A stretch of 57,486 nt of DNA from a virus: IMG/VR virus record IMGVR_UViG_3300042298_002341, positions 1-57,486 of that record, one strand, 5' to 3'. Positions within the stretch are counted from its first letter, which is position 1; each line of letters starts with the position of its first letter. Position numbers and translations under genes: made by a program. A model generated the notes under the pieces. The model saw only the letters and a program-made list of their open reading frames with translations. It did no database searches and was not told the DNA's origin. Of the stretch, positions 30,701 to 53,890 are shown in pieces.

Positions 30701-33700
30701 ATGCAGACCTACGACGTAAAAGGCCCGGACGGACGCATCTATCGCTTCAAGGGCCCGGAAGGCGTCCCTCAAGAAGAACTTGAGGCTGCGGCGCGCAGGG
30801 AGTACCTGCGCCAGCCGGCCCCCGACAAGTCGAAGGAGGGGTTCTTTGCTGCGGCCAAGGCGGGCACTCAGCGCTTGGCTGGGGAAGCTGCGCTTACGGC
30901 CGGCAAGATGGGCATCATCGAGCCGGAGCGCGCCGAGCAGATCTACGCTGCGCAGCAACAGCGGGCGGCGGAACGGTTTCGCCCCACCGAAGATTCATGG
31001 CTGGAATCGCCACTGCTCAAGCTGAAGGAGCTTGCGGGCGGATCGGTTCCGTACATGATGGCCCCTGTGGCGGTAGGCGGTCTCGGGGCGTTGGCGGCAA
31101 CTGGTGTGGGGGCACCGGCTGCAGCGGGGATTGCTGCGCTGGGCGGTGCAGGGCTTACGTCCCTCACGCAGTTCACCGGCAGCAACCTTGCGCGTAACGT
31201 CGAAGAAGGCAAGCGTCTCGCTGAGACCAGCGGTGCGGGTGCGGTAGCAGCGGCCATCCCCCAAGCGGCCCTTGACGTTGTGTCTCTGCGGATGCTGCCC
31301 GGCATCGGGCGCATCTTCAACCGCGCAGGCGTCGAGATCAGCGAAGAGACGGCGCATCGTATTGCTCAGCAGAAGTTGCGCGAGCGCGTAGCAGACTACA
31401 CGCTGGCCACCGGCAAGGCGGCAGGCATCGAAGGCACCACGGAAGCCGCGCAGCAAGTGCTGGAGCGGCTGCAGGCCGGGCTGAGCATCACCGACGCCGA
31501 CGCGCGGAAAGAGTACTTCGAGAGCTTCATCGGCGGTGCGGTGCTGGGCGGAGCGATTGCGCCTGTCGGTACGGCGCTGGATCGTGGTCGTGCGGTGCGT
31601 GAAGGCACGCGCATGGGTGAAGAGCGGTTGAAGACTGGGCTGGAGATGGGTCCGCCAGACCTGCCCGCGCTGCTAGCTGGCCCGCCGGATCTTAGCGGTG
31701 CGTTTGGCCCGCCGACATGGGCCAAGGGGCTGGAGTCGGCTGGAGCACCTCCGCTCAAACTGGGGCTTTCCGAGACGCCTGACCAGCGACGCTCGCGTGT
31801 CGAGCAAGGGATTGCCGGCATCGAAGCCGAGCTTCAAGCGCGTGCGCAGGGCACAGAGCCCCTCACGCCGGAGCAGATCATCGCGCTCGATGCGCAGATG
31901 GAGCCCAAACGGCAGCAACTGGAAGCGCTCAAACAAGAGCTTGCCGAGATCGGCCCGCCTCCGCCGGCCCCGCCGCCCATGGCCTCGCTTCAGCAGCAGG
32001 AAACGAAGCTGCTGCAAGAGATCGAAGCGGCGCGTGGGCGCGGTGACCTGTCGCTGCAGGCACGGCTTGCGCGCAGGCTTGTCGAGGTGCGCCGGCTGAT
32101 GGGCAAGGCCCCGACCGAAGAGGCGATGCCGACGGCCACGGCGGAGACGCCAACGCCTGAAGTGCCGACCGTCGAAACGCCGCAGCCTACGGAAGCCGAG
32201 GCGCTGTATCAGCGCGCAGTCGAGGCGGTGCAGGCGTCGGGCAAGGCCAGCGTCTCCAGCATCCAGCAGGCGCTCACAATCGGGTACAAGCCCGCTGCCA
32301 AGCTGCTCAAGCAGATGGAGGAGGCGGGTGTCGTCAGCCCGCCGCAGGCCAATGGCCGACGCACGGTGCTGCAGCCTGCGCAGACGGCAGAGCCCGCCGA
32401 AGCCGTCAAGCCGGAGCCCACCGAGGCGCTGCCTGCGCCGACCACGCCTGCAGCAGAGACCACCGAGTTGACTGCGGCAGCGGAAACGACTGCCCCTGAG
32501 CCGACTGCCCCTGCCGAGAAGCCTACCAAACCCGCCAAGGCAGCACAAGCTGTTGCGCCGGCCGAGGAGCAGGCCGAAGCGCCGCTGCCGGAGTACAAGA
32601 CGTGGCCCCCGACGCAAGAGCCGGCTGAAGGTGCACCGAAAGGCGAGCAGTACTGGGGACCGCCGAAGATCACACCGACACGGGAGAAGCGCACCGATGA
32701 GTACGAGCGCAACCTGCTGGGGGCGCTGCGCCGGCTGACCAACTATTTCGAGCCGAGGAAGGGCATCAACCCGCAGACGCAGGCGGTCGAGATGATGCGC
32801 CCCGAGCCCACCGAGGCGCAAGTCGAGGCAGTCACGGAGCTTCTCACCCGAGGTCTGGAGCGTGGCAATCTGCGTGCCGAGGCACAGCGCGCAACGCGCG
32901 CGCAGGGGATGGCGGACGAGGAGCCGCGCATGCGCGGCGTCAACATCGACGCGGTCCGGGAACTCGTCAACGACATCGCCAAGAGCCCCGAGAAGCGCCA
33001 AGCCGTGCAGAAGGCGCTGCGTGACCCGGCAGGGTCCGACTTCTTCGACACGCTCAGCAAGCGCCTGTTGACGCGCGAGCGTCGGGAGTACCCCGTTCGC
33101 AAGCCGTCGCCTACACCCGCGAAAGCGGACAGCCCTGTCAGGCGGCTGAGCAGCGCGTACAAGCAGGCCGCTGGAGCCAAGCTGGGGGACGAAGACGCTG
33201 CGCTCATGCAGCAGTTGCGGCCCTTGCTGCCGCGCATCGCCACGGCTACGCCGGAGGTCGGAGATACCGACACGCGCGAGGTGGTGTCCAAGTGGCTGTC
33301 GTCAGCCGCGCAGGGCAAAGCGTCGGCCACAGCCCGCGCGCAAGTGGCCAAGATCGTGCAGTCGTACGGGGAGAAAGCCCCGCCCAAGCCCACCAAGGCG
33401 CAGCAGGTCGCTGAGAAGAAGCGGGCCGAGGCGCAGGCCAAGGCCGACAAGGAACTGGAGCAGGCGCACGCGGCGCTGGAGAAGGCCACCGCACCGCTGA
33501 AGGAGAAGCTCGCTGCGCTGCAGGATGCAGCCGCCAAGCTCGTGCAGGCGCGTGACCTTGAAGGCAAAGCCGCTGCGCAGAAGCGCAACGAGGCCATCAC
33601 CGGCCTGATGAAAGCCGAGAAGGCGTTGGAGCAGCTACGTCTGGAGATTGCCGCGCCGTTTGCCAAGCAGGCGTCCAAGGTGCTTCCCGGCTGGCGTGCA

Positions 33701-36700
33701 CAGGCCATGAGCGCCGACTACTCGGCCGCGCAGCAACTGATCCGCGTCTTCGAGCGTGCCACTGAGCAGGCGGCAGAGCAGCTGTTCACTTCGCGCTCGG
33801 GCATGACGGAGGCGCAGCTTCAGAACAGCATCTCCCTGCGCGAGGCGATCTCTGAGCTTCGGCAGGCGTACGAGTCCCCGGACAGCACCGCGCAGATCCG
33901 CAGTGATGCCGTCAAGGCGGTCGAGAACGCGCTGACCTACGTCCGCAACGCGGGACTGCCCAATGACAGCGTGAAGCGCATACGGCGTTTTGACGAGATG
34001 CTGGAGCTTGCGGACAGCGCTGCGAAGCGCTACGTCGAGCGTATGGGTCGGTTTGCCAACATCCAGCAGACGCTGCGTGACATTGACGCGGCGCGGTTCA
34101 TGGCGCTGTCGGTGCAGCACGCTGTCACGAAAGGCAACGCGGACAGGCTGATCGAAGCGCAGGAAGCGGTGGTGCAGGCCAAGCAGGAGGCCGACCTTGC
34201 GCAAGAGAGCATGAACGCTCTGGCCACGCAGCCTATGGAAGAGCAGCTGGGGCCGCTCCGCAAAGAGATTCGTCAACTGCGTGCCAAGCTGGACGACGCT
34301 GTCAAGGCCCTGTCAGTCACTCGCGACAAGAAGTCTGGCCCGCTCAGCGGCCAGCTTGGCAAAGCGCTGCTGCAGCTGAACGAAGATGTCATCATCGCCA
34401 TCGATCCGTTGAAGCCGTCCGAGATGACGAAGACGGATGATGGATGGGCGCTGAACTTCGAAGAGCGCACCGTCCGCGCGATCATGCATACGGCGTCTCC
34501 GCAGGCTATTGCCCGGCTGGAAGCCAAGTACGGCAAGGAAGCGCGTGAAGCTGACGAGCAGGCAGTGCGCCGCGTGTACGGCGATGTGTACGGCGCTGAC
34601 GGTGTTACGCCTGTTTCTAGGCGACGTATTGAGTTCCAGCGCGGGCTTTCACCTAAAGAAGAGGCGCGTATCGCTGCGCTCGAAGAAAAGTATGCAGACC
34701 TGCTGGCTCAACGCTTTACTGGCGATTCTGTCAATGACAAGCTGCTCAGCGAAGCGCGCGAAGCAGTAAAAGCCAAGATTGAAACGTACAACAACAAGGC
34801 CACGGAGCGTCAGAAAAAACTGGAGAACGCTTATGCAACGATGATCGCCTCGCGCAAACAACTGGAAGATGCCTTCGCTCAGACCACCACAGAGTTCAAT
34901 CAAGAACGCGACCCGCTGCTTGCCGAAAAAGACAGGCTACTGCAAGAACTAACTGTTGAACGCACGGCTGAGCAGATCAAAGCCATTCTTGGGCTCAAGA
35001 AAGACTTCTCGCTGGAGGTGCTAAAGGCGCGTCTCGACGCTAGTTACGCCAGCCGCATTGACAAGCTAGACGCCAAGATTAAAAAGTTCGAAGACGCGTA
35101 CAGTGCTAAACAGGACAAAACCATCACAGAGCTAGCCAAAGTCAATACGGCTTTTGAGCGAGATCGTGGCGTTTTTCGTACTACGTTGCCGACACGCGCC
35201 GAAATCGCGGCTGCACGCGGTAGCGTGACGCGCGCCGCCGAGAAGAAGCACATCGACGTGCTTCGCGGGCAGATCGAACTAGCTATGCTCATCACGCACA
35301 AAGCGGTAGAGCGTATTGCGGCCACGCAGCATAAACGTCGTGTCAGTTCACCGCTCATGCGTAAACTTAGCACGCTTGCCCAGTTCTACACAGGCGTAGG
35401 ACGCTCTCAAAAAGGCGGCGATGGGCGCGGGCGGCTGCTTGAAAGCACACGCGTTAGTGAACGAGACGTGCCGTTTAGCGCGTTTGAAATTCGACAAATC
35501 AATGAGCTTACAGACGCCATCACTGGCAAACCCGCACTTAAGCGTTCGGAAGCGCAAGCGCCGTACGTCGCAGGCGAACAGCCGACGATTAAGCGCGCAG
35601 CCGCCACGACGCTTGAGTCTTTCTTGACTGAAGCCGAAGCAACGGTGCTGGCGCGTACAGACATCAAGATGTCGGAAGTTAGCAGCATCATCACTGACGC
35701 AATCGATCTGACAACAGAACGCAGTTCAGCAGTTGGACGTGCTTTCTTTTCTGGCAAGCTGAATAAGCTACTGACCGGCCCCGCGCTTAAAGGCGAATCG
35801 GGCTCAGCCGTCGAGGCAGCCCTGAGGCGTTTGTACTCAATAGCGGCAGGTGAAACTGCCGGCACTCGTAGACCGCTGACAGAAGCCGAGCGTCTTGCAC
35901 AAGATGCTGAATTCTTGTCAAGTTCAGCCGTTGAACGACGTGCGATGTCCGTGGCACGGCAGCAGAAGATTGCCGAGCGTATGAAGCCTCGACCTATCAA
36001 TGACGAAGAAGCCAGCGCGCTGCGAGACGACAACGACTTCTACGCTCGGCAGACTGTCAATGATGTGAGCGCGGATGTGCAGCAGGCGTTGGAGAGCAAC
36101 GACCTGCCCGCAGCGCTTCGTCTGCTCAGCGAGAACGCCAGCAGCCCTGAGAACCGCGAGACGGCGCGCCGCCTCCTCGACAACATCGAGGGTGTGCGCG
36201 TGGTGGTCGCCGACGAAGTGACGCTCGATGGCAAGGCGGTCGAAGGCAAGTACAACCCGCAGTCGCTGACAATCACGCTCGACCGGGCACTGCTGAGCGA
36301 AGAGACGCTTCTGCACGAGGCCGCGCACCCGGCCACACTGAGCAGCCTCGACGCGCCGAAAGGCGAGCAGGCGCAGGCGGCGCGCGCCGAGCTTGAGAAG
36401 CTCTACAGCGAGGTCAAGGCCGATCCGAAGTTCGCCAAGGAGTACGCCTCGACCGACCTCAAGGAGTTCGTCTCCGAGCTTCTGTCCAACGCCGATCTGC
36501 GCAACAAGCTCGACGCCCGCGAGGGGCTGCTCAAACGCGTCTACAGGGCGCTGATGCGCCTGCTCGGGTTCGACACCCAGACCGCGTCGCAGAAGGCCAT
36601 GGCGCAGGCGTACAAGCTGTTCCAGCCGGCAAGCGCCGCGAGCGCCGATAAAACCATTGGCTCTGCCGGTAGAGTCAAAGACGCTGCAGTTACTTTCAGG

Positions 36701-39691
36701 GGGCGTCGAGGACACGCAAGCAACGAATCGGTTATCGCGTCTTTGCGCGTTATTGACGAAGATGACGACATAGCGTTTGAGTACCCAAAGCGTGTTGGCG
36801 CAGTAATGTTGGAGAACATCTATCGAGTAGACAAAGGCGAAACCGGACGAGCTACTCCACTACTGCAGTCAATAGCCAACTGGGCAGACGCTAACGGTAA
36901 AAAACTGGTGTTGATGCCGTCTGGGGAGATTGCTAACTCCAGAGCCGCGTTAAAAAATTGGTATGAACGCAACGGCTTTGTTTCAAAAGCGGACGGAGCC
37001 ATGGAACGTGAACCTGTCCGACGTGTTCTTGCTTCTGCCGTACGCGCGCGTGGCATCAACGCTGTGATGAACGGCGTCTTCCCCGGCACCAAGCCGGTTG
37101 CTGCGGCCAGTGTCGGTTCTGATGTCGCGGATGCGGTCTCGCGGGTTGTGGGGCGCAACGCCTCGCTGGGGGACAAGTACACAGCCTTCACTGCCGGCCT
37201 CACCGTGCGGCAGGCCATGTTGGATCGGTGGGCGTCTGTCGAGCACATCCTCAAGCAAGGCATCGCCAAAGGCAAGATCGACGAGACGCGTGCCCTGCAG
37301 CTGCGCGTTAACATGCGACTGCACGACCAAGTCAACCAGATCACGAGCGCTGGCCTGACGCGTGGTGGCATTCAGTTGACAACGGACAAAGAAAGCAAGG
37401 GGGTCAAGTACGTCGAGGCAGTTGGCGGAGCCAACGCCATCCAGATGGCCAACGCGCTGCGCAAAGCCAAGGTAGGCAACGAGCAGTTCACCGAGCAGCT
37501 GTTCACGACGTGGCTCGCTGTCAAACGCGCCGAGTCCATGGAGGGCGGCTACCGCAAGCTGAACTTCGGTGTTGATGCGAAGGGCAATCGCCTGTTTGAC
37601 GCGCAAGACGGTGCAGCCATCAAGGCAAAGGTCAACTCCGACCCCGCCACGCGTGAGGCGTTCGAGGAGGCTCGGCGCATCTACCGCGAGTACAACGACG
37701 GTCTCATCACGCTGCTTGAAAAGTCTGGTGTGATCGACTCGACCAAAGCGGCGGAACTGAAGAAGGGCGACTTCGTTCCGTTCTATCGCATCTCGGGCGA
37801 CGTGGTGGAACTCGACATCGGCGCGTCGCGTCCTGTCACCATCGGCAACGTCATCGACCAGCCCTACCTGCGCGAGCTTGTGGGCGGCGAAGACAAGATC
37901 ATGCCTGTGTTCTCCAGCATGGCGCGCAACACCGGGCTGCTGGTGCAGCTGTCCCTGCGCAATCTGCAGGCCAAAGACGTGGCCAACATGCTGCAAGAGA
38001 CGGGGCTTGCCACCATCGTCTCCAAGCGCATTGAACAGAACGGACGCATCATTCGGTTCAAGTACGGCGGCAAAGAGTGGTCTGCTGTGCTTGACGCTGC
38101 GGCTTTCAAAGAGCAGGGCCTGACGCCTGAGATGGTTGTGCAGGGGCTGCAGGGCGTGAAGACCGCCATCCCTGCGGTGGTTCAAGCGATGTCCTACCCG
38201 GCGTCGCTGCTGCGCAAGTCCATCACACGCACGCCTGTCTACGTCGTGCGGCAGATGATCCGTGACCCGCTCAACGCGTGGCTCACCACAGGCGGGGACA
38301 TCAACCCGCTGAAAGTGGCGGCGGGCGGCATCAAGAACATGTTCTCGACCAAGTCCACGAAGACAGAGGACACGCTCAGCCGGGCCGGCGTAGTCAGCAG
38401 CCACGTCTTCAGCAACAGCCCTGAGGATGTGGCGCGCATCCTCCAGCAGATCACCGCTGGCGGGTCGAACTGGAACGCGGCCATGGCCAAGCTCGATGGC
38501 ATGGCTCTGAAGGCTGACGCGCAGACGCGGGCGGCGGTCTACGACAACTTCCGCAACAAGGGCATGACGCACGTCGAGGCGCTGCTCAACACGCTGGAGT
38601 CGATGAACTTCACGCGGCGCGGAACCTCCGCGTCGATGCTGTGGCTCTCGACCATCATCCCGTTCTTCAACGCACAGGTGCAGGGCCTCGACATCTTCTA
38701 CCGCGCGCTGCGCGGCGACGTGCCCTACGAGCAGAAGATGCACGCCCGCGCTGAACTGCTGAGGCGCGGTGCGATGGTTGCCGCCGGCACCATGGTCTAT
38801 GCCCTGCTGATGCAGGAAGATGAGTCCTACAAGAACGCGACGCCGGAGGAGCGGGCCATGAGTTGGTTCGTGCCCATCCCCGGCGGCGGGTCGTTGCGCG
38901 TGCCCATCCCGTTCGAGTTCGGCATGCTCTTCAAGTCGCTGCCTGAGGCGCTCATCAACACCGCGTTCGGCGACACGCGCGTCTCCGAGGCCATGGGGGC
39001 GCTGGCCAAGCAGCTGACGATGTCCAGCCCGCTCTCGCTGCCCACCGCCATCCAGCCGATCATCGAGCTTACGGCGAACTACAGCTTCTTCACCGACCAG
39101 CCCATCGAGTCTGCGCGTGAGCGCAACCTCACGCCGGGCGAGCGCTTCCGTCAGAACACGTCGGAGATCGCCAAGCTCATCGGTGGAACCCTGAACGTCT
39201 CGCCCATCGCCATTGAGCACCTCGTGCGCGGCTACACCGGCTCGACCGGCATCCTCGCTTTGTCGCTGATAAATCCGATACTGCGCCCGTTCTCTGCCCA
39301 AGAGATGGGGGAGCGTCCCGAGCGATCGCTGAGCGAACTGCCCATGATCGGCTCGCTGGTGCAGCCCGAGAACGGCCGAGGGCTCATCAACGCGGCGTTC
39401 GACGACATCAACCGCATCCAGCGTGCAGCCAGCACCTACCGGGAGATGATCGAGTCTGGGCGGGTGGACGACGCCCAGTCGTTCGCTGAGCGCTTCTCGC
39501 GTGAGATGGCGCTGACCTCTACCGGCGGTGCGTTCCGCCAGCAGATGGGTGAGCTTGCTCAGCAGAAGCGGATGATCGCAGCCAGCGCCGGCCTGTCAGG
39601 CGAGCAGAAGCGTGCTCAGATCGACGAGATCAAGAAGCTGGAGATCATGATGGCGCGCCAGATCCGCGATCTGGTCAACGCGTCCGAGTGA
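30701..39691 (+). CDS. Giant polyvalent ejection protein with LPD38
   Basis: 2996 residues, the largest gene. In order: an N-terminal motif PDGRIYRFKGPEGVPQEEL (about 9-27) typical of phage ejection proteins; glycine/alanine-rich hydrophobic stretches (about 113-165, 280-300) able to enter membranes; an FtsK-gamma-like winged helix (500-557); a Pro/Ala/Glu linker; very long coiled coils (about 890-1700); a zincin motif HEAAH (1872-1876); a GNAT-like segment (about 1985-2110); and a long C-terminal region with YVVRQMIRDPLNAWL (about 2510) that I recognise as LPD38. Polyvalent proteins are delivered with phage DNA, so this one is probably injected. GC content drops over residues ~1300-1750 and ~1985-2110, suggesting mosaic assembly. 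Its 3' end overlaps the first leftward gene by 17 bases. Confidence 0.8.
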   Translation: MQTYDVKGPDGRIYRFKGPEGVPQEELEAAARREYLRQPAPDKSKEGFFAAAKAGTQRLAGEAALTAGKMGIIEPERAEQIYAAQQQRAAERFRPTEDSWLESPLLKLKELAGGSVPYMMAPVAVGGLGALAATGVGAPAAAGIAALGGAGLTSLTQFTGSNLARNVEEGKRLAETSGAGAVAAAIPQAALDVVSLRMLPGIGRIFNRAGVEISEETAHRIAQQKLRERVADYTLATGKAAGIEGTTEAAQQVLERLQAGLSITDADARKEYFESFIGGAVLGGAIAPVGTALDRGRAVREGTRMGEERLKTGLEMGPPDLPALLAGPPDLSGAFGPPTWAKGLESAGAPPLKLGLSETPDQRRSRVEQGIAGIEAELQARAQGTEPLTPEQIIALDAQMEPKRQQLEALKQELAEIGPPPPAPPPMASLQQQETKLLQEIEAARGRGDLSLQARLARRLVEVRRLMGKAPTEEAMPTATAETPTPEVPTVETPQPTEAEALYQRAVEAVQASGKASVSSIQQALTIGYKPAAKLLKQMEEAGVVSPPQANGRRTVLQPAQTAEPAEAVKPEPTEALPAPTTPAAETTELTAAAETTAPEPTAPAEKPTKPAKAAQAVAPAEEQAEAPLPEYKTWPPTQEPAEGAPKGEQYWGPPKITPTREKRTDEYERNLLGALRRLTNYFEPRKGINPQTQAVEMMRPEPTEAQVEAVTELLTRGLERGNLRAEAQRATRAQGMADEEPRMRGVNIDAVRELVNDIAKSPEKRQAVQKALRDPAGSDFFDTLSKRLLTRERREYPVRKPSPTPAKADSPVRRLSSAYKQAAGAKLGDEDAALMQQLRPLLPRIATATPEVGDTDTREVVSKWLSSAAQGKASATARAQVAKIVQSYGEKAPPKPTKAQQVAEKKRAEAQAKADKELEQAHAALEKATAPLKEKLAALQDAAAKLVQARDLEGKAAAQKRNEAITGLMKAEKALEQLRLEIAAPFAKQASKVLPGWRAQAMSADYSAAQQLIRVFERATEQAAEQLFTSRSGMTEAQLQNSISLREAISELRQAYESPDSTAQIRSDAVKAVENALTYVRNAGLPNDSVKRIRRFDEMLELADSAAKRYVERMGRFANIQQTLRDIDAARFMALSVQHAVTKGNADRLIEAQEAVVQAKQEADLAQESMNALATQPMEEQLGPLRKEIRQLRAKLDDAVKALSVTRDKKSGPLSGQLGKALLQLNEDVIIAIDPLKPSEMTKTDDGWALNFEERTVRAIMHTASPQAIARLEAKYGKEAREADEQAVRRVYGDVYGADGVTPVSRRRIEFQRGLSPKEEARIAALEEKYADLLAQRFTGDSVNDKLLSEAREAVKAKIETYNNKATERQKKLENAYATMIASRKQLEDAFAQTTTEFNQERDPLLAEKDRLLQELTVERTAEQIKAILGLKKDFSLEVLKARLDASYASRIDKLDAKIKKFEDAYSAKQDKTITELAKVNTAFERDRGVFRTTLPTRAEIAAARGSVTRAAEKKHIDVLRGQIELAMLITHKAVERIAATQHKRRVSSPLMRKLSTLAQFYTGVGRSQKGGDGRGRLLESTRVSERDVPFSAFEIRQINELTDAITGKPALKRSEAQAPYVAGEQPTIKRAAATTLESFLTEAEATVLARTDIKMSEVSSIITDAIDLTTERSSAVGRAFFSGKLNKLLTGPALKGESGSAVEAALRRLYSIAAGETAGTRRPLTEAERLAQDAEFLSSSAVERRAMSVARQQKIAERMKPRPINDEEASALRDDNDFYARQTVNDVSADVQQALESNDLPAALRLLSENASSPENRETARRLLDNIEGVRVVVADEVTLDGKAVEGKYNPQSLTITLDRALLSEETLLHEAAHPATLSSLDAPKGEQAQAARAELEKLYSEVKADPKFAKEYASTDLKEFVSELLSNADLRNKLDAREGLLKRVYRALMRLLGFDTQTASQKAMAQAYKLFQPASAASADKTIGSAGRVKDAAVTFRGRRGHASNESVIASLRVIDEDDDIAFEYPKRVGAVMLENIYRVDKGETGRATPLLQSIANWADANGKKLVLMPSGEIANSRAALKNWYERNGFVSKADGAMEREPVRRVLASAVRARGINAVMNGVFPGTKPVAAASVGSDVADAVSRVVGRNASLGDKYTAFTAGLTVRQAMLDRWASVEHILKQGIAKGKIDETRALQLRVNMRLHDQVNQITSAGLTRGGIQLTTDKESKGVKYVEAVGGANAIQMANALRKAKVGNEQFTEQLFTTWLAVKRAESMEGGYRKLNFGVDAKGNRLFDAQDGAAIKAKVNSDPATREAFEEARRIYREYNDGLITLLEKSGVIDSTKAAELKKGDFVPFYRISGDVVELDIGASRPVTIGNVIDQPYLRELVGGEDKIMPVFSSMARNTGLLVQLSLRNLQAKDVANMLQETGLATIVSKRIEQNGRIIRFKYGGKEWSAVLDAAAFKEQGLTPEMVVQGLQGVKTAIPAVVQAMSYPASLLRKSITRTPVYVVRQMIRDPLNAWLTTGGDINPLKVAAGGIKNMFSTKSTKTEDTLSRAGVVSSHVFSNSPEDVARILQQITAGGSNWNAAMAKLDGMALKADAQTRAAVYDNFRNKGMTHVEALLNTLESMNFTRRGTSASMLWLSTIIPFFNAQVQGLDIFYRALRGDVPYEQKMHARAELLRRGAMVAAGTMVYALLMQEDESYKNATPEERAMSWFVPIPGGGSLRVPIPFEFGMLFKSLPEALINTAFGDTRVSEAMGALAKQLTMSSPLSLPTAIQPIIELTANYSFFTDQPIESARERNLTPGERFRQNTSEIAKLIGGTLNVSPIAIEHLVRGYTGSTGILALSLINPILRPFSAQEMGERPERSLSELPMIGSLVQPENGRGLINAAFDDINRIQRAASTYREMIESGRVDDAQSFAERFSREMALTSTGGAFRQQMGELAQQKRMIAASAGLSGEQKRAQIDEIKKLEIMMARQIRDLVNASE

Positions 39692-39863: not shown

Positions 39864-42846
39864 CGAGTCGATCCTTGGGCACCGTAAGGTGCATGGTCAG
39901 CACCCGTAGCGCCGGTCCATCCACACGCGCAAGCATGTCCTTGCGCACATTGAAACGAACATGCACGCCCTCAGTGTGCATCGCTTGCAGCCCACGCTTC
40001 AGATCAGCAAAGCCAAAGCTCATAGCCGCACAGTGCTGACGCAGCAGCTGCTCTTCAACGAAGAAGTCCACTAGGTGAGTGTGCGTCACCCCGTGCTCAA
40101 CCCTGCCCATGACGTTGGCTTTGGTTGAGGTCTTGCCGGTGATATCGACGCCAAGGTCCGTGAGCAGATCGCCTTCGCTGCTGCGACGGACCACCACGAA
40201 GCGCCCGTGGTACTCGCGAATGTAGGCGTTGAGCACGTCCTCGGCAGACCGAATCGACGCCTTGTAGCTGACGCGTGCGGCCTGCACCAGCGACTTGAGC
40301 GCCCCGACGACGGGCTTGATGGGTACGGACAGCAGCTGCGTGTAGTTCTCTCCCAGCAGGATTGTGGCGGTCAGGATGTTGGTGCAGGCTGCGTGCCAGA
40401 TACGCTCCTCATCAGTGAACGCGAACTCGTTGCGAACCCGTGTGTGCACCTGCGCCCAGAGATCAGCAACCTTCCGGTAGTTGGACACGCAGTAGCGTAT
40501 CCACTGCTCACCCGCCACGCCGTAGTTTGACCGCAGCATCTGCAGAACCGCCCGCTCTCGGTCGTCGAACTGCAGTTCTTTCGACGGAGTCCACTCCAGC
40601 ATACGCATGAGTTCGCCATGCGATGAGTGCTTGCGACTGCCAGTCAGCAGATCGATCATGTGCACGTTCGATGTGAGCGTGCAAGTTGAAGACCACGTCG
40701 AGTTGTTCAGCCGTTCCTTGTTGGAGCTAGACTCCATGCGCTCCTTGCCCTGACCCTCCGCGAAGTCGAAGATGAAGGCGGGGGCCCACTCCACGTCATT
40801 GCGGGCCTTGGACGTGATCTCGTCGCTGAGCAGCGGCAGGCTGTTCAGCAGGCCAGCGCGTTGCTGCATGGCCACGGGCGAGGTGCCTTTGCTGGTGCGG
40901 TAGCGGATGGGGTGGCCCCACACGCCGGCCTTCAGCGAGAGCGTGAGCGACTTGCCGGTGCCCGACGCCGTGGACCCGATGTGCCACACAAAGCCCTCGT
41001 GGTTGCTGAAGTGCATCAGCGTCGAGCCGAAGCTGTCGATGCACAGCGCCAGCATCGTCCACATCTCGCGGTCGATCAGCAAGTTCCACGGACGCCGCCA
41101 ATCCTCCACCGTACCCCGCGCCTGCGTGACGCGGTTCAGGTTCTCCAGCCCCGGCATGGGCACGATGTGCTCCGTGCCGTCAGGACGGAAGACGCGGTTG
41201 TTGTAGACGAAGGTGCGATCACGCTGCCAGCCAAACTGCACCGGCACGTCGAGCGGCTTCTTGTTCTGCGACGCTTCATTCACACAGGCGCGAACATAGC
41301 CAAACAGGTGCACATCCATGGCCGACCCACGCGACGCGTAGATGTTGTGCGCGGCCAGACACTTGAGAAGGTCGTCACGCGATACGACGGCCTTCGTCGG
41401 CATGATGATCGAGATGTAGTCTTTACCATTGCCGTCTGGCGTAGGCTTGATCGCCATCATGTGTACGCGATGCTCGCCGTCTTCCATCTTGAGCAGATCG
41501 ACGACAAACAGGTCATGGGAGAGCACTTCCACCTTTGTCTTGATTGTCACACCGGAGGCGTCGGTCTCCTTCACCTCCACATACACGCCACCGCGCTCAC
41601 CGTACATGTAGCCACGCGGTGGTGAGGGGATCTCCACTTTGCGCGTCTGCAGGACACCGGGGCCGTCGTCTTCATCGTCGTCAAGCACCGGCTCGGGTGC
41701 GTTGTCGTCCTTCAGCGTGTTCGTCGGGACGATGATCTGTCGCGGCTCAACGTGCGTCAACACGTCACGGCCCAGCGCCAACGCGTTGGTGATCTTGCCC
41801 CAGTGCGGGCAGCTGGGGCAGACGCCGGGGTTCTCCGAGTCCATCTTGATGCACGGGTACGGCCCCTTGATCTCCGCGAGCTTGGCGTGCATCCGATGCT
41901 CGGGGTAGGGGTGCAGGGCGCTCAGTTCCCGTGACGCCTCGTCGCCGTCCACGCAGACCTTCGTCCACGAGAGCAGTCCACGCCACAGCGGCTCCATGCC
42001 GTCGTCCGACGCGTTCTTGCTGTAGTGGGCCAGCTGGCCGCACCCATCCCCGCGCTCGGTGCGCAGCATGATGGTCTTGAAGTGCGTCGTCACATTGCCC
42101 AGCAAAGCCTCGGCGGCGGCGCTGCGCCGCTGCTGCGCACGGCTGGGGGCCGTGCCTTCCAACGACACCCCGTGCGCCACGAAGCTGTTGCTGATGGGCG
42201 CGTAGCGCTCCGACAGTTGGGCGCGGACGATGGCGCTGAATCGGCGCAGATCGACCGGACCCGTGCCCTCCTGCAGCAGCTTGACCCGGCGCGGCGTGCC
42301 GTACACCTTCTTGTGATTCAGCGTGTCCGGGACGCGCAGAATCCGCGCCGCATCCGCAGTGGCGGTCATGTCGATGTGGAAGCCTTCCTGCACGCACAGG
42401 CGCTTGAAGTTTTCAGCGATAGGCTTCCATGTGACGATGTCCACCGGCTCCGTCAGCGGCCAATAGCAGTGAAGCCCCCCGCCCGATGAAATGACGTGGG
42501 GTTTGCCTAGCTCAGCCAGACCCGTCTGGTCAATGAAATCATAGAGAGCAGCGCCTGCTTCTGCCTTAGTGTCATACTTGTCGATGTCGATGTAGATGGC
42601 CTTGATGGCTCGCGCGTTCTTGGCTGTTCGGCGTTCCTTCCGCATGTGCTCGACGGCGGGGTCGAATGTCGCCATTGCGAAGTAGATGTCATAGTCGGCC
42701 TTGTACCAGCGCTTGATGTGTGGGGATAGCTCCTCCAGTGTGTGAGTAAAGACATGGTACTTCCGTTCACCCGATATGGCTGCTGCGCAGTACATCCCAT
42801 TTCCGAGAGGCGGCAGCACGTCGGCCATTAGCTCCAAAGCACGCAT
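39826..42846 (-). CDS. Primase-helicase (AEP primase + AAA-type helicase)
   Basis: 1006 residues. The N-terminal archaeo-eukaryotic primase domain shows the catalytic DID (87-89, in YIDIDKYD) and the second motif SGGGLHCYW (121-129). A cysteine cluster (C332, C343, C346, H348) looks like a zinc-binding primase element. The C-terminal motor has a Walker A GSTASGTGKS (624-633) and Walker B-like LLSDE (672-676), as in DUF927/D5-like helicases. It should lay primers and unwind DNA for the polymerase encoded in the same arm. No separate DnaB-type helicase is present, which supports this role. Confidence 0.85.
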   Translation of the reverse strand: MRALELMADVLPPLGNGMYCAAAISGERKYHVFTHTLEELSPHIKRWYKADYDIYFAMATFDPAVEHMRKERRTAKNARAIKAIYIDIDKYDTKAEAGAALYDFIDQTGLAELGKPHVISSGGGLHCYWPLTEPVDIVTWKPIAENFKRLCVQEGFHIDMTATADAARILRVPDTLNHKKVYGTPRRVKLLQEGTGPVDLRRFSAIVRAQLSERYAPISNSFVAHGVSLEGTAPSRAQQRRSAAAEALLGNVTTHFKTIMLRTERGDGCGQLAHYSKNASDDGMEPLWRGLLSWTKVCVDGDEASRELSALHPYPEHRMHAKLAEIKGPYPCIKMDSENPGVCPSCPHWGKITNALALGRDVLTHVEPRQIIVPTNTLKDDNAPEPVLDDDEDDGPGVLQTRKVEIPSPPRGYMYGERGGVYVEVKETDASGVTIKTKVEVLSHDLFVVDLLKMEDGEHRVHMMAIKPTPDGNGKDYISIIMPTKAVVSRDDLLKCLAAHNIYASRGSAMDVHLFGYVRACVNEASQNKKPLDVPVQFGWQRDRTFVYNNRVFRPDGTEHIVPMPGLENLNRVTQARGTVEDWRRPWNLLIDREMWTMLALCIDSFGSTLMHFSNHEGFVWHIGSTASGTGKSLTLSLKAGVWGHPIRYRTSKGTSPVAMQQRAGLLNSLPLLSDEITSKARNDVEWAPAFIFDFAEGQGKERMESSSNKERLNNSTWSSTCTLTSNVHMIDLLTGSRKHSSHGELMRMLEWTPSKELQFDDRERAVLQMLRSNYGVAGEQWIRYCVSNYRKVADLWAQVHTRVRNEFAFTDEERIWHAACTNILTATILLGENYTQLLSVPIKPVVGALKSLVQAARVSYKASIRSAEDVLNAYIREYHGRFVVVRRSSEGDLLTDLGVDITGKTSTKANVMGRVEHGVTHTHLVDFFVEEQLLRQHCAAMSFGFADLKRGLQAMHTEGVHVRFNVRKDMLARVDGPALRVLTMHLTVPKDRLDEDSSTLSVGSR

Positions 42847-42851
42847 TGTTC

Positions 42852-42992
42852 TTACCGATCATCGTCAAGCGTCGCCTCCAGCCTCTCGAATAGCTCTTCG
42901 ACCCACCCATCGGGCGCTTCTTCGGAGCCAATCAAGGGCGCGAAATGCTTCAGGTCTTCGTCTGAAAGTCCCTCAGGCTGAACTCCGTGCAT
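42852..42992 (-). CDS. Small acidic protein, function unknown
   Basis: 46 residues (MHGVQPEGLSDEDLKHFAPL ... ERLEATLDDDR), acidic and helical. GGAGA lies six bases before the chosen ATG; an in-frame ATG four codons upstream lacks a ribosome site. It overlaps the end of the helix-turn-helix gene by 43 bases in another frame and ends five bases before the primase-helicase start. Function unknown; position in the replication operon suggests an accessory role. Confidence 0.5.
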   Translation of the reverse strand: MHGVQPEGLSDEDLKHFAPLIGSEEAPDGWVEELFERLEATLDDDR

Positions 42993-43240
42993 ATGGCTCT
43001 CCATGCGTCTTGTGTTGTCTGGGCCGCTTGCAGGCAGCGCACTATGCGCTCGACCTTGGGGCGGTATGTCGGGGTCACGTCCTTGCCGTGCATCCAGTTG
43101 TACACGGTTTGACGCGTGGCACCTGTGGCCTCTTGCAGAAGCGTCACAGGGATGTCGTGGTAGATCGCCCAGCGCCCTAGACGAACGCCTAGCGTGACGG
43201 GCAGCGATTGAACTTTGTCGATGAAGGCTTGGCGGTACAT
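42950..43240 (-). CDS. Helix-turn-helix DNA-binding protein
   Basis: 96 residues. A Cro/XRE-like helix-turn-helix is visible at about 32-51 (VTLLQEATGATRQTVYNWMHG without its last residue), followed by KDVTPTYRPKVERIVRCL. Likely a transcription regulator of the phage, or a replication-associated DNA-binding factor given its place between the putative ssDNA-binding protein and the primase-helicase. No strong ribosome site precedes the ATG. It is the clearest regulator candidate in the window. Confidence 0.7.
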   Translation of the reverse strand: MYRQAFIDKVQSLPVTLGVRLGRWAIYHDIPVTLLQEATGATRQTVYNWMHGKDVTPTYRPKVERIVRCLQAAQTTQDAWRAICTEFSLRDFQTKT

Positions 43241-47613: not shown

Positions 47614-49620
47614 TCAGCCTTTCGCAAGGCCGTAGCGTCGGTGAGCGCCGACATCCGCTGCCAGAGGGATTCCCGGCATGTACTTGGGCTCCTTCGTCAT
47701 CTGCTCCAGAACCCACTTCGTTGCTTCGTCTTTCTCCTGCTCGGGCACAACGACAAGCTGCTCGTCATGCACCGTTCCTACAATCGGGTACCGCTTGCCA
47801 GTGCGTAGCATACCATCTGTCATGACGATACGCGCCAGCCCCTGCGTGATGTTGTTGGTGATCTTGCCAGCGTAGAGCTTTGTCTCCTTGTCTCCGTCGC
47901 CGTAGACCCACTCGACTCGCACCCGTCCGTTCTTCTTGACTTTGCGCGAACGCAGATTCGGATAGCGCACGCTCATGCCGTTGGGGAAAACGATCTGCTC
48001 TTTCTGAAACGTCAGGCACTTGTGGTGGTACACCTCGCCGCCGTACAGCGAGCGCTCGATCAGCTGCGAGCAAAGCTCCCACAGTCCAACCACCGGGTGC
48101 GCAGTGGCGCGGTAGATGTCGATGATCTTCTTGGCCGCTACGCAGTGGATCAGCAACTCCTGCGATGTGCAGGTGTGCGGGATCTCCGCCATCGCCTTGA
48201 GGTTGTCGTCCCAGTCGAGGAAGCGCTCGATGTAGTCACGCGTGACGCCCAGCTTGCGCGCGAAGTCTTTGTCGTAGCGTACAGGTGGAGCACCCAGAAA
48301 GCCAACCAGCAGCTGCGTGGCGAACGATGCCCACCCCAGACCGTATCCTGCCCCCAGCAGCGCCGACTTCGCGCTTTGGCGAAGATCCGGGTGCGTCTCT
48401 TTCGTCATGCCGGGTATGCCAAACATCTGCGAACCAAACATGGCGTAGGCATCTTGCCGGGACCGGAAGATGTCTAGAATCTCGTCGTAGTCGGCCAGCC
48501 ATCCCAGCACACGCGGTTCGATCTGTGAGAGGTCGCCGACCACCAGCACATGCCCCTCGGGGGCCATGATCGCCTTGCGCAGGAATGAGCCGCGCTTGAG
48601 GTTCTGCATGTTGATGGCGCTGCCTTTGGCGGCGCTCCAGCGGCCTGTGATGGCCCCGTAGTAGGAGAGGGGCACAGGCAGTCGTCCGCGTTCCGAAATC
48701 TCCATGAAGCGCTGCGCGCGTGTGCGCTCGGTGGTGGACTTCACCTTCAGCCTTGCCTCGCACAGCAGCGCCACGTCGCCGTTGTCGCCGTTGAGCAGTG
48801 CTTGGAACATGGCGTCGTTCTTGGCGAACGCGTACGTCAGGCCCTGCGGGTTGGGCGTCTTGGCCGTGGGCTTGCGCTTCTTCATGGGCGGCTCGACGCC
48901 CATGCGTCGCAGCACCTCCGCGAACTGCGGGCCGCTCGCCAGCGCATCCTCTGGGATGCCCAGCATCGCCAGCAACGCTTCACGCTGCTCCTTCTCCTCC
49001 AGCAGCGCGTGCACCAGCATGTCTTGGTCAAGCTCCAGCAGCGGGCGCGTGTACATCTTCAGCGTGAGGTCGATCAGCCGCAGTTCGCTGACCGGGTAGC
49101 CCACGCTCAGGCGCTTGTAGATCTCCTCGCACAGGAACACGTCGTGCTTGCAGTACTCGGCAAGCTCCTTCTCCTCCTCCAGCGTGATGATGCCCATCTT
49201 GCCGTCGGTGCTGTAGACCGCCTTGCCCTTGGGCGGCAGGCCGAATTCATCAGCCAGCTTGGACAAGCTGTTGCCCACCTCGACCCCGCGCAGCGCCCGC
49301 GCCATCGACAGCGTGTCGAAGATGAACGCCGGCTCGTAGCCGTAGACCCACGTCAGGATGCTGACATCGAACTGAGCGTTGTGGGCGAGCACGGCGGTCG
49401 TGCTCCAGTCGATCTCGTCGAAGATCTGGCGGATGTACTTGTAGCCGATCCAGCGCGGCGGCTCGTCGCTGCCCAAGAAGTGGATGCCTACGCCCCAAGA
49501 GGCAAAGCGCTTGTCTCGGATGTACTCCTCGGTTGTCATCTTGGAGAGCGTGTAGCCTGCCTTCGAGTCCCATTTAGTCTCGAAGTCGATTGTGAGTATT
49601 TGAGTGAATGGTGCGCTCAT
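47614..49620 (-). CDS. DNA polymerase, family A (T7-like)
   Basis: 668 residues: replicative polymerase with proofreading. The exonuclease domain shows DFET (12-15), AHNAQFD (79-85) and YCKHDV (156-161). The polymerase domain shows motif A with D363 (VGDLSQIEPR), motif B RQSAKSALLGAGYG (414-427) and motif C HDE (618-620). The exonuclease begins 12 residues after the chosen ATG, so this is the natural start, although the ribosome site is weak and the frame stays open upstream into a VRR-NUC domain. Y426 sits at the position that affects dideoxy discrimination in T7-type enzymes. Confidence 0.93.
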   Translation of the reverse strand: MSAPFTQILTIDFETKWDSKAGYTLSKMTTEEYIRDKRFASWGVGIHFLGSDEPPRWIGYKYIRQIFDEIDWSTTAVLAHNAQFDVSILTWVYGYEPAFIFDTLSMARALRGVEVGNSLSKLADEFGLPPKGKAVYSTDGKMGIITLEEEKELAEYCKHDVFLCEEIYKRLSVGYPVSELRLIDLTLKMYTRPLLELDQDMLVHALLEEKEQREALLAMLGIPEDALASGPQFAEVLRRMGVEPPMKKRKPTAKTPNPQGLTYAFAKNDAMFQALLNGDNGDVALLCEARLKVKSTTERTRAQRFMEISERGRLPVPLSYYGAITGRWSAAKGSAINMQNLKRGSFLRKAIMAPEGHVLVVGDLSQIEPRVLGWLADYDEILDIFRSRQDAYAMFGSQMFGIPGMTKETHPDLRQSAKSALLGAGYGLGWASFATQLLVGFLGAPPVRYDKDFARKLGVTRDYIERFLDWDDNLKAMAEIPHTCTSQELLIHCVAAKKIIDIYRATAHPVVGLWELCSQLIERSLYGGEVYHHKCLTFQKEQIVFPNGMSVRYPNLRSRKVKKNGRVRVEWVYGDGDKETKLYAGKITNNITQGLARIVMTDGMLRTGKRYPIVGTVHDEQLVVVPEQEKDEATKWVLEQMTKEPKYMPGIPLAADVGAHRRYGLAKG

Positions 49621-50223
49621 GTGGGTGCCTGTTAGTGACGCGTCATCTGGTCTTCGTCCATCATCGCCAGCATGTACGCTTGGGACGCTGCTTCCAGCAT
49701 CCGTACTGTGTCCTCTTCCGTCGTCAGGTGCAGTGGATAGACTGATAACTCTTCGACCCCCTCGTAGTGTGTTAAGAGTACGGCGCGAAAGCTGAAGCGT
49801 TTCTTCTGCATGTAGCACGCCGCCAACTTCTTCAGGATGAATTGAAACTCCTTCAGCGCTTGATTGTTGGACCGCAGTTCGTGGTGGACTGTGGCCAGCA
49901 GATGCACATCCTCCAGCCGCGTCTGTTCGTCGTTTGACATGATCTAGCGCCTCTCTTAGCGCAGAAAGGTTGTCTTCGTTGATCACCAACGACACGCCGC
50001 CGGCTAGCGTAATGTCCTCCAGCGCTTTCTTTTGCAGCGCTGTGGTGGTCCCTTTTCCAGCCTTGGCCTCTACCGCGATAAAGCACCCGCAGTAGCAAAT
50101 GAGGAAGTCTGGTGTTCCAGACTTGCCGTAACCTGTACCAATGGGCATGGCATAGTACGCTCCGTACTCTTTGAGCACGTCGCGTATACGCCGCTTTACT
50201 TTTGACTCTGGAGTAGCGGCCAT
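49621..50223 (-). CDS. VRR-NUC nuclease frame, open into the polymerase gene
   Basis: The first ~98 residues are a VRR-NUC domain, with GTPDFL (D39), FIAVEAKA (E52, K54) and Q64. After about residue 98 (HVKRR) the frame has no stop and no recognisable fold, and it runs in frame into the polymerase. That linker stretch is read in another frame as the 102-residue gene that follows. Either this is a genuine fusion, or the stop has been lost by mutation or a sequence error. The true end of the nuclease is therefore uncertain. A weak GGA precedes the ATG. Confidence 0.6.
49632..49940 (-). CDS. Small helical protein between VRR-NUC and polymerase
   Basis: 102 residues, helical (VHHELRSNNQALKEFQFILK; later MLEAASQAYMLAMMDEDQMT). 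It starts just after an in-frame TAG and ends 11 bases before the polymerase ATG. The sequence has the composition of a real protein, whereas the overlapping VRR-NUC frame here looks random, so I favour this frame. AGAGAGG lies upstream. Function unknown. Confidence 0.6.
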   Translation of the reverse strand: MSNDEQTRLEDVHLLATVHHELRSNNQALKEFQFILKKLAACYMQKKRFSFRAVLLTHYEGVEELSVYPLHLTTEEDTVRMLEAASQAYMLAMMDEDQMTRH

Positions 50224-52581: not shown

Positions 52582-52802
52582 TTCGCCCATCCTTTCGGCG
52601 GCTCTGCGAGGCCGCGCCATGGGTTATCCTTAAAAGGGTACGGCGTTGTCTCACAGGCCGCTTTGTAAACGGTAGTGCTGCCGTAATACCAACGCTCACC
52701 ATCCCATCGCCGATACACTACAAATCTCGGCTTTTTGGCCTGATACACCCCCGGATACGCCGGCTTAACGTCGGCGGGGAACCACGGTGTAAACTTGCTC
52801 AT
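52578..52802 (-). CDS. Small early protein, TPWFP...[12 protein letters not shown] family (copy A)
   Basis: 74 residues opening [20 protein letters not shown], with [13 protein letters not shown] and the ending [15 protein letters not shown]. It is a clear paralogue of the gene at 53672-53890. Aromatic-rich, probably a small beta domain. Widespread in phages; function unknown. Confidence 0.7.
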
Positions 52803-53062
52803 GACTTCCCCTCCGCTTTTGCGATGGCTGCGCGGGCCTTGCCAAACCCAGCGTCAAGTTGTTCCCAGCCTTTGCCGTCTGCTGCATCCACTATCTCTTG
52901 CAAAGCTCTTAGCAGTTCCGGCGCTGCGGCGATCAAGCGGGCATTTGCGGTCTGCCTCGGGGTCATATCCCGATAGCTGGTAAGCAAACACACGGTTGTG
53001 TCGTCGTCGCTGCTGATCATGCTGCCCGTGATGATCCACGGCCCCGGCGTGTGCTTGCTCAT
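52799..53062 (-). CDS. MSKHTPGPW family protein (copy A)
   Basis: 87 residues opening [13 protein letters not shown], then [20 protein letters not shown] and the ending [12 protein letters not shown]. This is a common phage early protein family of unknown function. A second copy lies immediately upstream. The start matches the family opening and gives the ATGA overlap. Confidence 0.8.
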
Positions 53063-53388
53063 TTCTTCCCCTCCGCTTTTGCGATGGCGGCGCGGGCCCG
53101 TGCAATGCGCTGACAGTGACAGCATCTTGATTGCGGCACGATTCCGTAATGACATGGGGCGTCTGGCGGCGGCATGTTCGGGGTTATCTCCTTCAACGCT
53201 TCCAGCAGTTCCGGCGCAGCGGAGATCAGACGGGCGTCGGATTCTTCCTGCTCTTTGCTGTATTCACGAGTGCTGAAGCTGCTTGGCTCAACGGCACAAA
53301 CATACTCATAAACGCCGTCTACAAGCCTCGCTACAAGATTCGGGTTGCTGTCGTCTACAACCCACGGCCCCGGCGTGTGCTTGCTCAT
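53059..53388 (-). CDS. MSKHTPGPW family protein (copy B)
   Basis: 109 residues opening [17 protein letters not shown], with [19 protein letters not shown] and an inserted CxxC-containing segment ([12 protein letters not shown]) before the shared end [12 protein letters not shown]. Paralogue of copy A. Function unknown; coupled by ATGA overlaps on both sides. Confidence 0.8.
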
Positions 53389-53675
53389 GACTTCCCCTCC
53401 GCTTTCGCGATGGCTGCGCGGGCCTTGGCTACGCAGGCCGCGACGTCTTCCGGGTCCGGCATACCTTCAAGATGGTCAGCCGCAGTACGCAACGCCGCCA
53501 GCAGTTCGGCGACCTCGGCGTGCAGCTTGGTGACCTCGGCCGCAAGCATGTCGCGGTGCTTTCGCACGCGGTGCTCGTCCCAGTAGAGCCGGCGCAGTTC
53601 GGCGGCTATTGGATGAGCGCCGGCTTTGTCTGCTTTGTCAGCCAGCAGCAGGGCTTCGGGTTGCTGGTCGCTCAT
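53385..53675 (-). CDS. MSDQQPEAL family protein (copy A)
   Basis: 96 residues opening MSDQQPEALLLADKADKAG, with IAAELRRLYWDEHRVRKHRD, a coiled coil (MLAAEVTKLHAEVAELLAAL) and the ending [12 protein letters not shown]. It is a paralogue of the gene at 53887-54108, and its last 12 residues match those of the unrelated MSKHTPGPW proteins. Function unknown. Confidence 0.7.
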   Translation of the reverse strand: MSDQQPEALLLADKADKAGAHPIAAELRRLYWDEHRVRKHRDMLAAEVTKLHAEVAELLAALRTAADHLEGMPDPEDVAACVAKARAAIAKAEGKS

Positions 53676-53890
53676 TTCGTCCATCCTTTCGGCGGCTCTG
53701 CGAGGCCGCGCCAGGGTAATTCTTTCATCGACATACCGCCGTTGTTTGCAGCGCAATCTGGGTATCTGCTTCCTAAACACCAACGCTTACCATCCCAGCG
53801 GCGATACCAAGTCATGAGTTCGTTTTGCACCTCATACACCCCCGGATACGCCGGCTTGATCTCAGGTGGGAACCACGGTGTGAGTTTCAT
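53672..53890 (-). CDS. Small early protein, TPWFP...[12 protein letters not shown] family (copy B)
   Basis: 72 residues: [33 protein letters not shown] and [15 protein letters not shown]. Paralogue of copy A. The start codon and stop overlap neighbouring genes by four bases. Function unknown. Confidence 0.7.
   Translation of the reverse strand: MKLTPWFPPEIKPAYPGVYEVQNELMTWYRRWDGKRWCLGSRYPDCAANNGGMSMKELPWRGLAEPPKGWTK

Follow-up and report, generated by a model that had tools for sequence, protein, structure and literature searches.

A VRR-NUC nuclease frame that stays open into a family A DNA polymerase across a conserved small gene in a phage lineage

Introduction

How can a nuclease domain remain conserved when its gene has no stop codon of its own and its reading frame continues, over another gene, into a DNA polymerase? 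This question is raised by a locus in the IMG/VR virus record IMGVR_UViG_3300042298_002341, which was analyzed over a stretch of 57,486 nucleotides, called the window in the following. Protein fusions are usually pictured as requiring the deletion of intervening DNA. A first-pass annotation, made from the sequence of the window alone, had offered three explanations for the locus, namely, a nuclease-polymerase fusion with an overprinted gene, a recently lost stop codon, or a sequencing error. The open linker between the two domains is by itself not improbable, because such stretches are open by chance in 5-15% of cases. The unusual feature is a VRR-NUC domain that lacks an own stop and yet is under strong purifying selection.

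Results

Organization of the open frame

The minus-strand frame at 50223-47614 comprises 869 codons with zero internal stops. Residues 1-98 form a VRR-NUC/Hjc-like PD-(D/E)XK nuclease domain (49930..50223, minus strand), which is followed by a stop-free linker of 103 codons (codons 99-201; 49621..49929, minus strand) and by a 3'-5' exonuclease and family A DNA polymerase of 668 aa, counted from its own ATG (47614..49620, minus strand). This ATG is codon 202 of the frame (49620-49618, minus strand). Between VRR-NUC and polA, another frame of the same strand harbors a small gene for 102 aa (49632..49940, minus strand); its TAA (49634-49632) and the polymerase ATG are separated by 11 nt. Both basic observations of the first-pass annotation, the continuation of the nuclease frame past about residue 98 in frame with the polymerase and the 102-residue ORF with its own start in a second frame, were confirmed.

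A Shine-Dalgarno-like AAGAGAGG (49950..49957, minus strand) is situated 9 nt upstream of the small-gene ATG, within the coding DNA of VRR-NUC, and a weak AGG (49628..49630, minus strand) 7 nt upstream of the polymerase ATG. Two other IMG/VR assemblies (L001, L002) are identical to the window across the 3,000 bases compared. A diverged sister, with a polymerase identity of 85%, is present in four assemblies (L003-L006), which are identical to one another. In the sister, too, the nuclease start opens a stop-free frame of 866 codons that continues into the polymerase, and the counterpart of the weak AGG before the polymerase start is a strong AAAGGTG. Three additional IMG/VR scans for further clade members gave nothing beyond identical copies and this sister, and among 84,980 genomes of bacteria and archaea a scan detected a single 70% relative, which is unfused. 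The relatives described below were drawn from IMG/VR and many of them are fragments, and the fused arrangement is known from two lineages.

Two other regions of the window attracted attention. At 52799-53783 (minus strand) neighboring small ORFs share segments (MSKHTPGPW..., and another one), as if duplicated in place. In an ORF of 2,996 aa at 30701-39691 (plus strand), residues 495-561 give a short FtsK/SpoIIIE-like match, and the C-terminal part of about 670 aa is common to other very long phage ORFs.

The nuclease and polymerase domains

The catalytic pattern of the nuclease domain is P38-D39 ... E52-x-K54, plus Q64, and thus it has the PD...(D/E)xK active site and the glutamine ten residues past the lysine by which VRR-NUC/Hjc-like nucleases were recognized. 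T4, P5, E6, G36, D39, E52, K54, and Q64 are invariant across 13 relatives. The PHROG 93 endonuclease (phrog_93) matches residues 3-96 (E=1.3e-10), and the nuclease profile weakly matches 4qbo "Nuclease" (E=0.014). The window domain has no Pfam match at 0.01, and of the 13 relatives two are matched by the Pfam VRR_NUC model (best 0.0066) and five by Hjc (best 1.3e-5). No second VRR-NUC copy was found in the window record or in the sister record. The domains of window and sister share 82% identity, and their dN/dS of 0.065 shows that VRR-NUC has been kept under strong purifying selection after the loss of the stop.

VRR-NUC proteins that consist of this domain alone form dimers and cut four-way junctions (PMC4103454). 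The phage and bacterial representatives stNUC, saNUC, and psNUC resemble the window domain in length, in the PD-(D/E)XK motif, in the glutamine ten residues past the catalytic lysine (the equivalent pair of stNUC is K47/Q57), and in that they adjoin replication genes (PMC4103454). However, they are free-standing with a stop of their own, in contrast to the window frame, which runs 771 codons further, into the polymerase. Among the 60 of 68 matching annotated phage records listed, none has a polymerase annotated under the nuclease match. The closest VRR-NUC of an annotated phage among the matches listed is at 42723-43004 of OR577172.1 (Pseudomonas phage Rollin; 46.8%), where the record annotates no gene.

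The polymerase part matches PF00476 (E=9.8e-23), PF01612 (E=3.8e-5), and phrog_17 (E=6e-75). The exonuclease motifs DFET, NAQFD, and HDV and the polymerase motifs DLSQIEPR and HDE are present and invariant or nearly so across the 13 relatives, and domain models and motifs together identify a family A polymerase with a 3'-5' exonuclease. Polymerases of the KPP25/Rhizobium-phage type (PHROG 17) share this exonuclease-polymerase architecture, with about 30% identity across about 670 residues, but lack the N-terminal nuclease of the window frame in the annotated relatives that were examined.

The small gene

The sister copy of the small gene shares 48% identity over all 102 residues, which is unremarkable next to the median of 61% among pairs whose polymerases are similarly diverged, and the dN/dS between the two fused lineages is 0.37. 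A profile built without the fused lineages, i.e., from relatives with a normal VRR-NUC stop, matches the small gene of the window (E=3.8e-5) and the sister copy (E=1.1e-6). Of 125 distinct loci, 122 have the family at the same place. Its members are typically 89-98 residues long; at one end the gene overlaps the VRR-NUC stop, at the other it extends up to, or nearly up to, the polymerase start, and in some loci further genes intervene between VRR-NUC and polymerase. The predicted fold of the protein is helix-helix-strand-strand-helix (pLDDT 84.9), and family and fold or structure searches for its function gave nothing significant or convincing.

These comparisons show that the small gene is real and ancestral and that the linker frame was added later. 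A de novo origin inside the fusion is excluded by its presence in relatives without the fusion. That the small ORF is no gene at all and the whole stretch merely a linker has a single point in its favor, i.e., that it lies under the longer open frame; it is very improbable in view of the purifying selection, the conservation in the sister over the full length, the homologs in loci in which VRR-NUC stops separately, and the confidently predicted fold.

The family of about 95 aa between VRR-NUC and polA is widespread and has no useful match in Pfam, PHROGs, or NCBIfam; many members end with DAPPKE(M/A)FN. In one subclade, consisting of L075 (3704-4015; polymerase at 3984), L170, and L175, the small gene is absent, and the end of VRR-NUC reaches about 35 nt into the polymerase gene, whose frame is a different one. 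The small gene is thus dispensable.

Origin and age of the stop loss

The order VRR-NUC, small gene, polA is common to about 120 relatives. In about 125 distinct loci of close relatives VRR-NUC has an early stop, everywhere but in the window lineage and its sister; it is located 92-131 codons from the match start, before or just into the next gene. A comparison with relatives, proposed earlier as a check for a conserved stop after the nuclease, thus had a mixed outcome: the stop is present in all relatives with at most 75% polymerase identity and absent in the closest relative. The two fused lineages form one clade (support 100/100).

In the nearest outgroups, with 74-75% polymerase identity (L171, L254, L172, L174, L168, L169, L202), VRR-NUC and polA are already in the same frame. 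Their VRR-NUC stop is at codon 95-97, and just one to three further stops follow; in L174 the frame is open from codon 100, past the VRR-NUC stop, into polA. Therefore, the loss of one stop would have been nearly enough for a fusion. In some outgroups the VRR-NUC TGA sits within the small-gene start (CTCAATGGATGA in L254). Codon 97 of the window (AAA; 49933..49935, minus strand) aligns with the TGA of L254 and L172, and the sister (L006) has ATC at this site; the junction alignment holds a 3-nt gap, so that the register and the codon that replaced the stop are approximate.

Shorter extensions are also found. L111 (1035-1376) keeps ELLND*, while its near-twin L110 (1471-1809) continues for 18 codons to a stop common to both. 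In L113 (1523-1918) a likewise near-identical nuclease continues for 37 codons into the small gene. L110 and L113 are smaller-scale versions of the stop loss of the window.

Synonymous differences between the VRR-NUC regions of window and sister are near saturation (pS 0.675), and the fraction of identical codons at shared residues (0.487) is barely above the random expectation (0.460), with an identical-codon excess of just 0.05. The stop loss was a single, old event that predates the split of the two lineages, because a recent loss does not agree with near-saturated synonymous sites. The proposal of a recently lost stop codon was therefore right about the loss and wrong about its age. Similarly, the proposed fusion with an overprinted gene was correct in part: both lineages have the fused frame, but the small gene, being ancestral, is not the overprint.

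Selection or chance in the linker

The linker, whose predicted peptides include GVSIHPEEVGGVLHAEETLQLSR, is rich in Gly, Ser, Pro, Ala, and Arg and is predicted to be disordered. In an AlphaFold model residues 104-206 have a pLDDT of about 20-28 and no secondary structure; the model as a whole is weak (mean 59, 13 sequences, with the linker represented by two rows). The dN/dS of the linker frame between the two fused lineages is 1.02.

How often would such a frame be open by chance? Of the 102-codon stretches within 16 large ORFs of the window, 15.5% have no stop in the corresponding relative frame. When the small protein was fixed and its codons were redrawn, the frame of the window was open with a probability of 0.05-0.15 and that of the sister with 0.075-0.125; the values vary with the codon-usage table applied. 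For both lineages together the probability was about 0.012-0.014. If the window is taken as given, that of the sister was about 0.09, and this is the fairer figure, because the window was chosen for being open. Stop-creating codons were used at 0 of 26 sites, versus 13 of 114 T-ending codons elsewhere in both genes (pooled p=0.06).

Residue similarity in the linker frame beyond what the constraint on the small gene imposes was not detected by simulation (P=0.15-0.27). Among simulations that were open in both lineages P was 0.48-0.69, and with fully independent codons it was 0.012 and 0.08. Residue-level selection on the linker frame was thus looked for and not found. For overprinting, one frame is older, with phylogenetic support, and the linker is joined to VRR-NUC in one clade only; the newer frame shows no selection as a protein in the simulations, in agreement with its dN/dS of about 1. 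Taken together, the frame shows a hint of selection for staying open, and the linker residues give no clear sign of any.

Discussion

The locus is probably best explained by an obligate read-through product of nuclease, linker, and polymerase, with the small gene and the polymerase also being translated from internal starts. Ancestrally, VRR-NUC, the small protein (about 95 aa), and a family A polymerase would have been encoded by three closely spaced cistrons, and the stop of the first would have overlapped the start of the second. The nuclease stop would later have been lost in an ancestor shared by the window phage and its sister, in which VRR-NUC and polA were in one frame. Translation of the nuclease would then run through the small gene, in the other frame, and reach polA because the frame is stop-poor across the G+C-rich small gene. 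The predicted product is composed of the nuclease, a disordered linker of about 100 residues, the exonuclease, and the polymerase. The mRNA probably has three translation starts in use, the nuclease start for the fusion, the one behind the internal Shine-Dalgarno motif for the small protein, and the polymerase start for free polymerase. The small gene and polA have each kept a start, and separate products of both are likely.

Presumably, the fused protein accumulates, the polymerase is also produced on its own, and the nuclease acts as the N-terminal part of the fusion. Because VRR-NUC has neither an own stop nor a second copy, the working nuclease should, barring recoding, carry linker and polymerase or be cut free later. 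Two counterpoints have to be considered. Replication does not seem to need the fusion, because polA keeps its start and Shine-Dalgarno motif (strong in the sister). And the fusion could be a tolerated by-product, because the linker residues are without selection of their own.

Why the arrangement has persisted is addressed by two readings, both of which sit within the read-through explanation of the arrangement and its likely product. It is well conceivable that a neutral accident has occurred, in which the stop was lost, the next stop was far away by luck, and the long product is either tolerated or cleaved within the disordered linker by host proteases, which would free an active VRR-NUC. 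On this reading, the relevant polymerase comes from its own start. The near-chance openness of the frame, the weak avoidance of stop-creating codons, the unconserved linker residues, and the short stop-loss extensions in L110 and L113 are in agreement with neutrality. However, two to three stops are expected per lineage at synonymous saturation, and neither lineage has any. More tentatively, the fusion may be a selected bifunctional enzyme, in which a flexible arm tethering a resolvase-like VRR-NUC to the polymerase is useful in itself. One can speculate that it cuts branched fork intermediates or that it pairs two polymerases via a VRR-NUC dimer. The frame has stayed open in both lineages over a long divergence while VRR-NUC was strongly conserved, and the dimeric, junction-cleaving nature of single-domain VRR-NUC proteins (PMC4103454) would fit such a role. 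Against it stand the restriction to one small clade, the linker residues, which do not show selection, and a statistical excess that is weak and partly after the fact.

If VRR-NUC were ended near its terminus by ribosomal frameshifting or another type of recoding, no fusion would be made. The +1 frame indeed has stops just upstream of the small-gene ATG, but an X_XXY_YYZ heptamer is absent from the VRR-NUC frame of both window and sister and nothing conserved was seen at the junction, which renders recoding improbable. A sequencing or assembly error, the third of the original options, is practically ruled out by the identical independent assemblies and by the equally open frame of the diverged sister.

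For the probable read-through product, the nearest known cases that were found come from a polinton-like virus, in which Bro-N is fused to VRR-NUC and a helicase to PolB (PMC12721341). They, too, combine a nuclease or a polymerase with a further replication domain of a DNA virus, but involve another polymerase family and other partners, and the excerpt of that source describes no third gene in a linker. Among the matches listed for literature on VRR-NUC, phage, and DNA polymerase, no title names such a fusion. The locus also resembles overlapping or overprinted viral genes (reviewed in PMC8227390) in that one stretch is open in two frames of the same strand. In contrast to those cases, the newer frame in the window stems from a stop loss and acts, if at all, as a linker and not as a new protein. 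The components are of known kinds, and it is their arrangement that differs.

If the fusion is made, a Holliday-junction-type nuclease would be tied to a replicative polymerase, a pairing not seen among the phage records examined. That it is functional, i.e., a replication protein with three activities (resolvase-like nuclease, proofreading exonuclease, and polymerase) and a flexible linker that spans an entire conserved gene in another frame, is possible but rather doubtful. If true, one stretch of DNA would yield three products, namely, the fused enzyme, the small protein on its own, and a polymerase from its own start. In any case, the locus represents a natural example, with intermediates, of two replication genes that were fused by the loss of one stop, with the intervening gene surviving inside the linker. 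The series of relatives, with an own stop, a short read-through, the full fusion, and the loss of the small gene, makes this route testable.
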